Below are positions 4,488 to 62,510 of a stretch of DNA of 64,000 bases, in pieces. The notes under the pieces were generated by a model. That model was not told the origin of the DNA. It saw only the letters and a list, made by a program, of their open reading frames with translations, and made no database searches. The position numbers and the translations under genes were made by a program. The stretch is from Candidatus Planktophila limnetica (GTDB taxonomy: Bacteria; Actinomycetota; Actinomycetes; Nanopelagicales; Nanopelagicaceae). The DNA lies in assembly GCF_002288365.1 (NCBI RefSeq), contig NZ_CP016782.1:310001-374000 (forward strand). Reading direction: 5' to 3'. Each line of letters starts with the position of its first letter. Position 1 is the stretch's first letter.

Positions 4488-5969
4488 ATGCCTTACGCCC
4501 AACTCAATAGCATCGAACCTTCGCTAGAAGACATTGTCAGCGCAGATGCGATTGCAGTTGGATTTGTTAAGTCCGAAGACTCCACATTTGAATTAGTTGG
4601 CAACATCAACGCGATATCTACAATCGAAAAATTCTTTGACATTGATCTCATTGATGAAATTTCATTCTTTCAACCTGGTGGCAAAGCTGGAGAAATTCTA
4701 GAAATTCCAATTAGCCAGAAGGCAACAAAGGCAGATCGAGTTTTCGTTATTGGTTTAGGCGATCAGAGTAGGCAATCTCATCGACTAGCAGCAGCAAGCC
4801 TTGGAAGAAAATTACGCGGCAAGAAGATAACTGTTTCAACTTTACTCGCGACAGACTCTGCAGATATTAGAGCCCACGCTATTTCGGTGGTTCTGGGTGC
4901 CTACACATGGACACTCAAAAGTGACTCCACTTCAGATCAACCAACATTTAATATTGTGAGTAAAGACGAAAAGATAATTCGTAGAGCCGAAGTTATTGCT
5001 TACTCCGTTTGTCGCGCTCGCGACTTAGTCCACACGCCTTCGAATATCAAAAATCCTTTGTGGATGGCTAATCAGGCACAAAAGGTTGCCAAAGAAGGCA
5101 AACTTTCAATCAAAGTTTTAGCGGGCAAAGAGCTTGCTCAATTTGGCGGGTTACGAGCAGTTGGTAACTCTTCCCCCAAGCCAGGACCGCGATTTATTCA
5201 AATAACTTATTCACCAAAGTCAACTGGTAAACGAATTGCCCACGTAGTTCTTGTGGGTAAAGGAATCACATTTGATACCGGTGGTGTTTCACTCAAACGT
5301 CCATACGATCTGATGATGGCAATGAAGAGTGATATGGCTGGCGCAGCTGCAGTTCTAAATGTTGTTGGCGCGTTGCCAGAATTAAAACCACGCGTCAAAG
5401 TCACAGCTTTATTGATGTGTGCAGAAAATGCTCTCTCTGGAACTTCACAACGCCCCAGTGATGTTATTACTCACTACGGCGGCACCACCGTAGAAGTACT
5501 AGATACCGATGCTGAAGGTCGTTTGGTTTTAGCTGACGGATTGGCATATGCGGATGCAAAACTCAATCCAGATTATCTAATAGACATTGCAACGCTAACG
5601 GGTTCGGCAACACTCGGACTTGGGCGCCAATATGGTGCCATGTACACACGTGATCGTGCTCTAGCATCTGAGTTAGTTGCTGTCGGTGAATCATCTGGAG
5701 ATCGTTTGTGGCACATGCCGCTCATTGATGATTACCAAGATTCACTCGAAAGTGACATTGCAGATTTTAATCACACGGCAGATAAAGGTGATTACTCTGC
5801 TGGCTCTGTTACGGCTGCACTGTTCTTAGAAAAATTCACTGGAAAAAGAAAATGGGTTCATTTAGATGTTGCAGGAACTGCGCGTAGCGAAAGTGATGCA
5901 GGAGAGTCACCAAAAGGTGGCACAGGATTTGGTGTTCGCGTTCTCATTGATTGGATTATGAGTTTATGA
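4488..5969 (+). CDS. pepA: Leucyl aminopeptidase (M17 family)
   Basis: 493 residues, the normal length. The C-terminal catalytic domain carries the two-metal site with GKGITFDTGGVSLK, MKSDMAGAAAV and the family signature (N/D)TDAEGRL, here DTDAEGRLVLADGL. It removes N-terminal residues from peptides in the cytoplasm and recycles amino acids. A TAGCCT hexamer (4475-4480) lies seven bases upstream of the ATG, with no ribosome-binding site. The stop codon overlaps the next start as ATGA, so pepA and the methyltransferase are translationally coupled. Confidence 0.94.
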   Translation: MPYAQLNSIEPSLEDIVSADAIAVGFVKSEDSTFELVGNINAISTIEKFFDIDLIDEISFFQPGGKAGEILEIPISQKATKADRVFVIGLGDQSRQSHRLAAASLGRKLRGKKITVSTLLATDSADIRAHAISVVLGAYTWTLKSDSTSDQPTFNIVSKDEKIIRRAEVIAYSVCRARDLVHTPSNIKNPLWMANQAQKVAKEGKLSIKVLAGKELAQFGGLRAVGNSSPKPGPRFIQITYSPKSTGKRIAHVVLVGKGITFDTGGVSLKRPYDLMMAMKSDMAGAAAVLNVVGALPELKPRVKVTALLMCAENALSGTSQRPSDVITHYGGTTVEVLDTDAEGRLVLADGLAYADAKLNPDYLIDIATLTGSATLGLGRQYGAMYTRDRALASELVAVGESSGDRLWHMPLIDDYQDSLESDIADFNHTADKGDYSAGSVTAALFLEKFTGKRKWVHLDVAGTARSESDAGESPKGGTGFGVRVLIDWIMSL

Positions 5970-58278: not shown

Positions 58279-58322
58279 GTGGGTTGTGAGGGACTCGAAC
58301 CCCCGACCCGGTGATTAAGAGT
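58279..58322. repeat. Left attachment-site repeat, copy of tRNA-Lys 3' half
   Basis: 44 bases identical to 62437-62480, beginning GTGGGTTGTGAGGG and ending with the anticodon region GATTAAGAGT. It spans the acceptor 3' strand, T arm, variable loop and half of the anticodon loop. The bases outside differ on both sides, which defines the repeat limits. Confidence 0.92.
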
Positions 58323-58494: not shown

Positions 58495-59025
58495 ATGAAT
58501 TTCTTTATAGGCATAAAAAAACTAATGCCTAAGATAATCATCACCTGTTCAGTTCTACTGTTCCTAACTTCCTGCTCCAGTAATTCAGACACAATTTCAA
58601 GCACCTCGGAACCAGTTGTTGGTCCTAGCGCTTCCCCTTTCAAGAAGCCTCCAAGTTTTGCCGCCTTTCAAACTTGCTTTCCTCAAACTGCAATTAACGA
58701 CTTAAAAAGGATTTTAGAGGACGTAAATGAAGGAATGCTTTCAATTCAAGATTTAGCAGAACCTCTAATGCAAGTTTCAACTGCCGCTGGGTTATCCCGA
58801 ATGCTTCTGGATGGGGCTGATGTTTACCAGAAGTATCCAGAATTAGGAGAAGTCATACCGGAAAATAAAATGTCCGATTATCTTTCGATTATGAGTAAGG
58901 AAGAAATATTTTTCGCAAAGATAAGAGTAAAACTCATTGATTCAGAAACATTAAATTTAGAAGTTCTAAATCAAGAAATTGATTTCCTATCAAATTATTT
59001 GCGCCCATTCTGCAAAATTGATTAA
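58495..59025 (+). CDS. Element-encoded lipoprotein
   Basis: 176 residues from ATG 58495 (ATG 58525 is an alternative). The start reads as a lipoprotein signal peptide with a lipobox LTSC at its end, then a Ser/Thr-rich linker. The mature part (about 40-176) is helical and acidic with no recognised domain. TACATT (58482-58487) lies seven bases before the ATG. It is the first gene inside the element and has no known relative I can name. Confidence 0.65.
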   Translation: MNFFIGIKKLMPKIIITCSVLLFLTSCSSNSDTISSTSEPVVGPSASPFKKPPSFAAFQTCFPQTAINDLKRILEDVNEGMLSIQDLAEPLMQVSTAAGLSRMLLDGADVYQKYPELGEVIPENKMSDYLSIMSKEEIFFAKIRVKLIDSETLNLEVLNQEIDFLSNYLRPFCKID

Positions 59026-59065
59026 GAAGAGTAATGCCATCCGCTTACTAGTGAAAGGTGACCAA

Positions 59066-59947
59066 ATGAAAGTTCAATTCAATACAAAATTTCTTGCAGC
59101 CCTTGGCACTGCTCTTTGGACGTGGCATCTTTTTGCTCCAAATTCACTGGGGGGAAATCTGAATTATTTCACACAGGACTTCAAGTTCTCATATTTACTT
59201 GATGGGCTTATTTGGGATGCAACAATTTTCATCCTTTTAGGATTAATCATCTCAATGACAATTCCAAATCAAAGAATATTGTGGCTAGAACTTGGGTTGA
59301 TTACGAGTTACTTTGGAAAATTGGTAGTTTTCTTTATCCAAGATTTATCCATTCAAACTTGGGTTTTATTTGGCGGATTCCTTTGTTATCTGGCTCATTT
59401 CGTACTGTCAACTGATATCAAATTATTTTTCAGAAAAGGTAATGAATTAGTAGATAGAATTATTTCATATGTTGCACTTATTCCTTTGGCATTGTTGATA
59501 ATAAGTTGGGCTTTACCTTTCACTAAAACAACGTATCAAACTAATGGTCAAATGACATTTAAAGGTACTGGAACTGATACCTTTATTGAGACGTGTTGTA
59601 CCGCCTTTGAAACTGGTTGGCAAAACAATGTAATTGCAATTTTTAGATTCGTATCAATTTTGTTTTTTCTCTTGCTTATTATTCTTGGGTTTAATATAAG
59701 TAAAACTGTTTTTATTCCTGCTTTATATTTTAGTACGTACAGTGTTGCTATTTGGATTTCTGGCTGGGGCCAGCAACCTGCTGAACCGTTTTCAGAGTGG
59801 ACTCAGGAATTGATTGATAAGTATCTACTCACAATAAAAGTTACTGGAATGCTTGGTGGATTTTTATATACATTTGCTTTGATTGCACTATTCGTCATTT
59901 TCTTGTTTCCAAGCGTGATTTCGGACAGAAAGAAAATCAGCGATTGA
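59066..59947 (+). CDS. Element-encoded polytopic membrane protein
   Basis: 293 residues from ATG 59066 with GAAAGG about eight bases upstream; the in-frame ATG at 58979 overlaps the lipoprotein. Eight or so hydrophobic helices are spread through the sequence, with an extracellular-looking loop containing CCTAFETGWQNNVI and another with WGQQPAEPFSEWTQ. No transporter motif is recognised. It follows the lipoprotein gene closely and may work with it at the cell surface. Confidence 0.6.
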   Translation: MKVQFNTKFLAALGTALWTWHLFAPNSLGGNLNYFTQDFKFSYLLDGLIWDATIFILLGLIISMTIPNQRILWLELGLITSYFGKLVVFFIQDLSIQTWVLFGGFLCYLAHFVLSTDIKLFFRKGNELVDRIISYVALIPLALLIISWALPFTKTTYQTNGQMTFKGTGTDTFIETCCTAFETGWQNNVIAIFRFVSILFFLLLIILGFNISKTVFIPALYFSTYSVAIWISGWGQQPAEPFSEWTQELIDKYLLTIKVTGMLGGFLYTFALIALFVIFLFPSVISDRKKISD

Positions 59948-61173: not shown

Positions 61174-61397
61174 TTGCGTAATCTACTCCCGGGCTACGTG
61201 GATGAGAAGGGCTATGACCCTAGGTAGTTAAATTTGAGCGTGTGCTAAATAAATAGAGCCTCTTCTAAATTTTTTCGTACAAAAGCACTCAGTCAAATAC
61301 CCTCAGTGCCGTACGACAGTACGGACAGTTTTTCATATGATGTTGTTTACCAAAAGTTCACACAAAAAAGTGTTCGTTTAGCCTGTTTGAACGGATT
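61174..61397. other. Non-coding region of the element, left part
   Basis: Between the exonuclease start and the structured block lie 224 bases with no supported gene. They hold the exonuclease promoter, a perfect 6-bp hairpin CCGTAC/GTACGG (61309-61324) followed by CAGTTTTT, and short A/T tracts. The T-run makes a weak intrinsic terminator on the plus strand possible. TTGACT occurs on the minus strand (61291-61296). Confidence 0.45.
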
Positions 61398-61539
61398 AAT
61401 ACATATAGAGGCTATTTATTTTTAGCAAATTCATAGCCTGGAATTTGCTCAGTCAGTAGATTCAGTACTGCGCAAATCTATAGAAGATTTGCGTTACAGA
61501 AATCTGTACAACTGGTTACTGACTGCCTCTATCTATATT
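61398..61539. repeat. 142-bp nested palindromic block, possible structured RNA or recombination/replication site
   Basis: Outer arms AATACATATAGAGGC (61398-61412) and GCCTCTATCTATATT (61525-61539) pair at 13 of 15 positions. Inside: AGCAAATTC (61424-61432) with GAATTTGCT (61441-61449), perfect 9 bp, loop 8; CAGTCAGTA (61450-61458) with TACTGACTG (61517-61525), perfect 9 bp; within it CGCAAATCT (61471-61479) with AGATTTGCG (61485-61493), perfect 9 bp, loop 5, and TACAG (61495-61499) with CTGTA (61504-61508). No reading frame fits. The whole forms a multibranched fold on either strand. Confidence 0.7.
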
Positions 61540-61587
61540 GACATGGGATACCTATGCCAAAATTGGCGGCTTTGAGCAAAGGCAAAA

Positions 61588-62420: not shown

Positions 62421-62440
62421 CCACTTACGCTCCTAAGTGG
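62421..62440. repeat. Hairpin at the right attachment site
   Basis: CCACTTA (62421-62427), loop CGCTCC, TAAGTGG (62434-62440), perfect 7 bp. It overlaps the tRNA-Lys 3' end and contains CTTACGCTC (62424-62432), also present in the loop of the second left-end hairpin. It may be tRNA transcript 3' processing or termination signal or a recombinase site. Confidence 0.55.
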
Positions 62441-62480
62441 GTTGTGAGGGACTCGAACCCCCGACCCGGTGATTAAGAGT
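62437..62480. repeat. Right attachment-site repeat within intact tRNA-Lys
   Basis: 44 bases identical to 58279-58322. It forms the 3' half of the functional tRNA-Lys and the inner boundary of the element. Confidence 0.92.
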
Positions 62481-62510
62481 CACCTGCTCTACCAACTGAG
62501 CTAACAACCC
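62438..62510 (-). tRNA. tRNA-Lys (anticodon CTT)
   Basis: 73 bases, full cloverleaf: acceptor GGGTTGT/ACAACCC, D-stem GCTC/GAGC, anticodon stem GGTGA/TCACC with loop CTCTTAA (anticodon CTT), T-loop TTCGAGT, discriminator A, no encoded CCA. Its 3' half is repeated at the left end of the element, so it is the integration target. Confidence 0.97.

Follow-up and report, generated by a model that had tools for sequence, protein, structure and literature searches.

A palindromic unit in a tRNA-Lys element of Candidatus Planktophila limnetica matches a site upstream of phage terminase genes and suggests a minimal phage satellite

A satellite that carries a site of its helper phage is an already known kind of mobile element. 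Among PICIs, EcCICFT073 and some SaPIs carry the cos site of the helper, according to the accessible part of the source (PMC6092414), which also gives the layout of lambda-type cos as cosQ-cosN-cosB. P4-like satellites, as far as the accessible text goes, have their packaging site (the cos of P4) next to the integrase, in a region that doubles as a hotspot for defence genes (PMC8628076). PICMIs, which in Vibrionaceae are inserted beside fis, are about 6.1 kb long, have core proteins of their own for excision and replication, and are packaged as 8-copy concatemers with random ends; the accessible part of their description reports that no packaging site was identified (PMC10803314).

The window analysed here is a 64,000-nucleotide stretch of the Candidatus Planktophila limnetica chromosome (NZ_CP016782.1, positions 310,001 to 374,000). 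It contains a 4158-bp unit bounded by perfect 44-bp direct repeats, and the repeat includes the 3' end of the tRNA-Lys gene (see the table). The palindromic block studied here lies between the integrase and exonuclease genes of this element, which confirms the gene order of the initial annotation. Gene-content scans (Pfam, PHROGs) covered the four ORFs of 234-385 aa rather than the shorter ones, and none of the four was recognised as a structural, packaging or replication-initiation gene. The features of a phage satellite that were found are an integrase between att repeats, the lack of an own capsid or tail gene among the four ORFs, and a cis site in common with a candidate helper phage, as described below.

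Measured against what the accessible texts say of the described systems, the element is like PICIs in being an integrase-borne island with a short cis site in common with a phage, but PICIs have their own replication module and regulators, which were not recognised here; neither an AlpA-type regulator nor a primase or replication module was detected among the four ORFs. The location of the site beside the integrase and a possible defence gene recalls P4-like satellites, but the unit is 4.16 kb long and none of its four ORFs matched psu, sid, alpA or any other core gene of P4. The element shares with PICMIs the very small size, about one-eighth to one-ninth of a helper genome, and the lack of capsid-remodelling genes. 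It differs from them in residing in tRNA-Lys and in having the integrase as its sole recognised core function.

The exonuclease matched the PADLOC profile PDC-S48 over residues 1-385 (profile positions 1-405 of 411; E 8.3e-100) and is a candidate defence cargo. A relative with 77% identity is encoded elsewhere in the same genome (G000:C1:1168530-1169681; L284, L285), and relatives occur in just two other genomes of 296, namely G108 (49%) and G068 (42%) (loci L286 and L287 in all); the relative in G068 lies near ORFs that resemble an ATPase and a methylase by eye. The exonuclease and the two other cargo ORFs had no match in the viral loci compared. The integrase matched chromosomal loci only among the loci compared, and a scan of viral contigs yielded no relative of it.

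Features of the tRNA-Lys element and of its palindromic unit (positions of the window)
Feature	Position	Strand	Remarks
Far att end, 44-bp direct repeat	58279..58322	+	
ORF, 234 aa	58321..59025	+	no Pfam, PHROG, PADLOC or NCBIfam match
ORF, 322 aa, hydrophobic by eye	58979..59947	+	no family match
DEDDh/RNase T exonuclease, 385 aa	60016..61173	-	PADLOC PDC-S48 match
Whole conserved unit	61345..61552	+	left flank, core, palindromic block, right stretch
Core of phage-type site	61372..61401	+	GTTC-N13-GAAC dyad plus GGATTAATA; pattern, alignment
Outer stem, 61405-61412 with 61525-61532	61405..61532	.	encloses the hairpins
Hairpin H3, 9 bp, 61424-61432 with 61441-61449	61424..61449	.	fold
Middle stem, 61451-61459 with 61516-61524	61451..61524	.	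fold
Hairpin H2, covarying, common to phages	61471..61493	.	alignment; fold pairs 61470-61479 with 61485-61494
5-bp hairpin	61495..61508		fold
GTTACAG/CTGT-type boxes, H2 to right edge	61495..61525	+	two CTGT/CTGG boxes in the window
Tyrosine integrase, 250 aa	61588..62340	-	
Near att end, 44-bp direct repeat at tRNA-Lys 3' end	62437..62480	+	
tRNA-Lys (CTT), integration target	62437..62510	-	

Folding reproduced the nested palindromes that the initial annotation had described at 61398-61539, with the stems at the positions given there, save that a 9-bp stem placed at 61450-61458/61517-61525 is present with a shift of one base (middle stem in the table). The 142-bp block has a minimum free energy of -49.7 kcal/mol, corresponding to z values of -6.94 on the plus and -6.68 on the minus strand, and none of 200 shuffled sequences folded equally well on either strand. 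A search of the whole window with Rfam 15 at gathering thresholds returned three tRNAs and no other structured RNA. A pseudoknot between ATAGCCT (61433-61439) and AGGCTAT (61409-61415) had also been proposed. Both motifs are present, but the complementarity is lost, as judged by eye, in the second chromosomal copy described below, and the pseudoknot is therefore unsupported. The block is a single copy in its 1.33-Mb genome, which led us to reject a repeat or a MITE.

The conserved unit proved to be larger than the box 61398-61539, which does enclose the palindromes. It extends to the left and spans about 61345-61552, where the right limit was set by eye on the alignment. The second copy matches the window from 61345 across the block and on into the integrase gene, the near-invariant core GTTCGTTTAGCCTGTTTGAACGGATTAATA lies mostly to the left of the box, and the rightmost stretch is still phage-like up to about the start of terL. 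The arms of H3 start with GCAAAT, like those of H2; H3 was seen in both chromosomal copies and in none of the phage rows inspected.

Exact patterns for the core and for H2 hit 16 and 8 IMG/VR contigs, respectively, and 22 of the 24 loci found in this manner carry the core (L068 and L069 are without it), the closest being that of L059 with 95% identity over 60 bases. In L062, L072 and L066, the unit is located just upstream of a large protein. Those of L062 and L072 were compared with PHROGs and matched the terminase large subunit, PHROG 38 (E 4e-61 for L062 and 1.5e-62 for L072); their N-termini gave weaker matches to the small-terminase families PHROG 4044 and 1482. The best 80 of at least 587 terL relatives comprised 78 loci in which the terL start was covered (L084 and L109, which matched without it, were dropped). 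A pattern with up to five mismatches placed the core at -100 to -180 from terL in 63 of these 78 loci, most commonly near -146, and a looser pattern found it within 195 bp upstream in 74 of the 78. Three of the remaining four loci, L108, L143 and L155, begin inside the region; L137 is without a core. This last locus has terL and the hairpin region, and L107 has a core and no H2.

For 23 of 220 loose core matches, terL was missing from the following 700 bp. Seven of these are the two chromosomal copies, listed under different locus names; in six the sequence ends 39-199 bp past the core, and ten are loose matches elsewhere in the locus that we judged to be chance. Of 210 viral loci, which overlap in part, 201 contain a single core under a stricter pattern, one contains two and 8 contain none. 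The site thus adjoins the terminase gene in phages, as a packaging site would. Because the block matches this phage site before terL, we suggest that the element is a particle-borne phage satellite. The ends of whole contigs near the core were not stacked at one base: 6 of 51 fall within 250 bp upstream of it, a weak excess over the 1.9 expected. On the downstream side, the same distance holds 2 of 51, which is no excess over 1.9. A second conserved hairpin (GGGGTC..GACCCC-like, then TTTAA/ATTAA) is located about 150 bp upstream of the phage core; it was seen within the first 120 bases of L096, L128, L130, L132, L140 and L150 and near position 2799 of L078, and several contigs begin 45-71 bases before it.

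A tblastn search with the L062 terminase identified OX376640 (E7) and OX376641 (F5) at 62% identity. E7 (39.1 kb) and F5 (38.9 kb) were isolated on 'Ca. Planktophila' (PMC10202952) and are the two isolated phages of 'Ca. Nanopelagicales'. The place of the window's genome in this order agrees with the link to E7 and F5. Before terL, both contain a diverged site, GTTCGGTTTT(A/G)GTACTTTGAACGGGTTA, with the hairpins AAAGATTA/TAATCTTT and GGATTAACC/GGTTAATCC and then repeats of the CAGTTAC type. As in the window, a core dyad GTTC..GAAC is followed by GGGTTA, two perfect hairpins and GTTAC-type repeats; unlike in the window, the site is within a phage beside terL, and the hairpin sequences differ. 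In blastn against the phage records, the block gave one 26-base match at chance level and the L062 site none, E7 and F5 being too diverged. Each of the two whole genomes has one core, which is not repeated elsewhere in it. The function of the site is not described in PMC10202952.

The order of symmetric core, repeated boxes and terminase genes is reminiscent of lambda-type cos, as far as this is described in the accessible text of PMC6092414. The phage-type site differs in having a covarying hairpin between the core and the boxes, and the E7 and F5 records look circular or permuted. The end and the start of the E7 record are neighbours in F5, as would be the case for permuted or circularised DNA; a fixed cos cut would therefore be no more likely than headful (pac-like) packaging, and cos-joined DNA could assemble in the same manner.

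Among 296 genomes of the host family, a core pattern allowing up to three mismatches was found in two, that of the window (G000) and G074; the order-wide core scan covered the same 296 genomes. Both chromosomal cores adjoin related integrases and neither has an adjacent terminase gene. The G074 contig (SXRC01000104.1) gave the sole long match to the block in the family genomes (76% over query bases 3-181), all other listed matches having E values of at least 0.0018. Its copy is positioned directly downstream of an integrase 80% identical to that of the window, folds with a z value of -10.5 and is cut by the contig end. The consensus fold of the two copies, which belong to different genera, comprises 46 pairs, 6 of which are changed on both sides, so that the stems are kept despite the changes; in the outer stem, the pair 61411/61526 is G-C in the window and A-T in the second copy. 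ARAGORN detected no tRNA on the 6.2-kb G074 piece, and the integrase there adjoins an ORF that resembles argininosuccinate synthase by eye (L021, 4780-5000). Because of this neighbour and the lack of a tRNA found nearby, the integration site of the G074 copy may differ from that of the window.

These two copies bear on the view that the element is a decayed prophage that has retained the region before terL by chance and has no present function. The stretch to the right of the block, phage-like to about the terL start, is what such a remnant would leave. However, copies in two genera preserve their stems through changes on both sides and have H3 in common, no terL match is located within 700 bp downstream of either copy, and sibling elements of 5.7-5.9 kb have the same small att-bounded layout. 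We consider a remnant very improbable.

A relative of the window integrase is present in 25 of the 296 family genomes. Seven sibling elements with integrases 65-82% identical to that of the window (G066, G172, G219, G110, G130, G091 and G147; some are cut by contig ends) yielded no core. What they have in common with the window element is mainly the integrase region, together with the att ends in G066, G172 and G110. Accordingly, an integrase or att site was rejected as an explanation of the block. The initial annotation had considered a role in element mobility, a recombination or replication site, or a regulatory RNA; mobility does fit the findings, but the tie to the integrase does not, the site being a phage feature upstream of terL. 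The elements of G066 and G172, which are 5.7-5.9 kb long and have the same att repeat, carry different cargo, so that there is a family of mini-elements with exchangeable cargo (loci L266-L272). Non-coding sequence at 61212-61283 has weak matches of 60-69 bp (70-73%) near the far end of the G066 and G130 siblings. The G130 sibling contains a strongly nested palindrome without a core downstream of its integrase (L270, about 5430-5620; best 150-nt fold -56.2 kcal/mol). A comparison of the siblings with the sites of other phages gave one weak blastn match, between the L268 element and L166, and this idea was dropped. If the siblings are satellites, they would use other helpers or other sites.

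Covariation was analysed in a 41-row alignment consisting of the window and 40 of 63 segments, all belonging to the class in which CGT(T)AC follows H2. The initial annotation had stated that homologues without the stems, or without covariation, would argue against a functional structure; the homologues do keep H2, with changes on both sides. In the 41 sequences, 98.7% of the H2 cells are paired and five of the eight pairs are changed on both sides. Pairing is complete (100%) in the core dyad, one pair of which is T-A in 34 sequences and C-G in 7. For three helices taken jointly, the covariation score was 0.237, compared with 0.119 in shuffles (0 of 500 reached 0.237) and 0.052-0.115 when the helices were slid. 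The numbers of paired cells and of cells with both sides changed were also above all shuffles; the number of pairs changed on both sides (7 versus 7.3) and of further pair types (15 versus 15.8) were not above shuffles. The third stem (columns 102-106 with 145-149) was discarded, with just 67.2% of its cells paired.

The type of base pair in H2 is informative as to the nature of the structure. RNA stems that switch from G-C to A-U commonly pass through G.U intermediates. A best-stem search over 43 distinct H2 hairpins, a set that includes the L051-L066 class outside the 41-row alignment, yielded 335 Watson-Crick pairs, 1 G.T, 0 A.C and 11 T.C or C.T, where the search scores no G.T or A.C and may miss such pairs at stem ends; at fixed columns, H2 has 4 G.U and 3 A.C cells. 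Because H2 covaries almost without G.U pairs, an RNA fold seems to account for these data less well than a hairpin or cruciform formed by the DNA, or a correction of DNA templated by the hairpin. A regulatory RNA thus appears disfavoured; as a regulator of the integrase or exonuclease in particular it was rejected, since the unit is a phage feature situated before terL and its main hairpin shows almost no G.U.

The same counts weigh on a reading of the site as a candidate late promoter with a structured leader RNA of the terminase operon, through which the satellite would sense or disturb late expression of the helper; the dyad might then bind a repressor or activator, or the leader might act in antitermination or processing. 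The site separates early-type ORFs that run leftward from the terL operon, which runs rightward, cores of the L062 class hold TTGACC-N16-TATATA by eye, and E7 and F5 both encode a sigma-70 factor, along with a WhiB-like factor (PMC10202952). Sister phages differ in dyad specificity, a switch that operators can also show. Against this stand the near absence of G.T and A.C in the 43 hairpins, the occurrence of the core at one place only in E7 and F5, and the orientation in the element, where transcription from the site would be antisense to the integrase. We regard a late promoter as quite doubtful.

A replication origin of the helper, at which hairpins and boxes would recruit helper replication proteins to the 4.16-kb circle after excision, would by comparison be well served by a DNA structure such as H2 suggests. 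Packaging would then follow without a special site. Since none of the element's genes was recognised as a replication gene, an origin, too, would be needed in cis and one served by the helper would be useful; a single copy per phage genome fits an origin equally. The site is, however, tied to terL at a near-constant distance, and in L062 the ORFs for primase and helicase, assigned by eye, are 7-9 kb from the core. An origin therefore seems unlikely to us; the GC skew of E7 was uninformative about its position.

Between H2 and terL, 52 distinct segments together contain 149 copies of CTGT, compared with 53.4 in shuffles; since the segments are homologous, this count is descriptive and not independent evidence. 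The window and the G074 copy have two CTGT/CTGG boxes each. Phages whose terL proteins are 97-99% identical, including the pairs L153/L156, L148/L149 and L120/L122, can have either GTTC..GAAC or GTCC..GGAC as their core dyad and also differ in the core centre. The dyad flips at a terL identity of 98.9% and no terL residue was found that tracks its type; terL therefore probably does not read the flipping base pair.

On balance, we think it somewhat more likely than not that the block is the packaging-initiation (pac- or cos-like) site that a family of phages of about 39 kb has before terL, residing here in a minimal phage satellite. The parallels with PICIs, P4 and PICMIs favour such a site, as does size: nine 4158-bp units amount to 37.4 kb, close to the 38.9-39.1 kb of F5 and E7. 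A satellite would be expected to copy sites that must be present in cis. From these comparisons we infer the satellite life style, the use of a helper, the packaging function, the headful mode and the recognition of a DNA hairpin. Infection by a related helper phage would cause the element to excise via its 44-bp att repeats and to be amplified as concatemers. The helper terminase, with an N-terminus that resembles the DNA-binding domain of small terminases, would then recognise the core, the hairpin and the CTGT boxes and would start packaging there, filling helper capsids with about nine 4.16-kb copies. Weak points of this proposal are the small number of chromosomal copies (two), the siblings and L137, in which no core was found, the dyad flip that terL does not follow, and contig ends that show no more than a weak excess on one side of the core.

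More tentatively, the block may represent a new site for starting packaging, or packaging and replication, that is read partly by DNA shape and has been captured by a 4-kb satellite of freshwater-type actinobacteria. In a site of this kind, the sequence of the hairpin or cruciform stem could change as long as Watson-Crick pairing is maintained, and the symmetric core could flip between sister phages; the added hairpin H3 might help the satellite to compete with its helper.

A literature search on satellites and integrative elements of 'Ca. Nanopelagicales', judged from the listings, returned nothing on the subject. If the packaging-site proposal is right, it would be the first proposed satellite-helper link for bacteria of this type within the literature so searched; new within the material searched are the host group, the site family and the covarying, DNA-like hairpin. 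'Ca. Nanopelagicales' are numerically dominant in freshwaters worldwide (PMC10202952). Found in dozens of uncultured and two cultured phages, the site provides a sequence-level handle for linking satellites to their helpers, and E7 and F5 offer a means of testing what it does. The near lack of G.U pairs in the covariation also opens to direct testing the idea that a packaging or replication site is recognised by its DNA structure.
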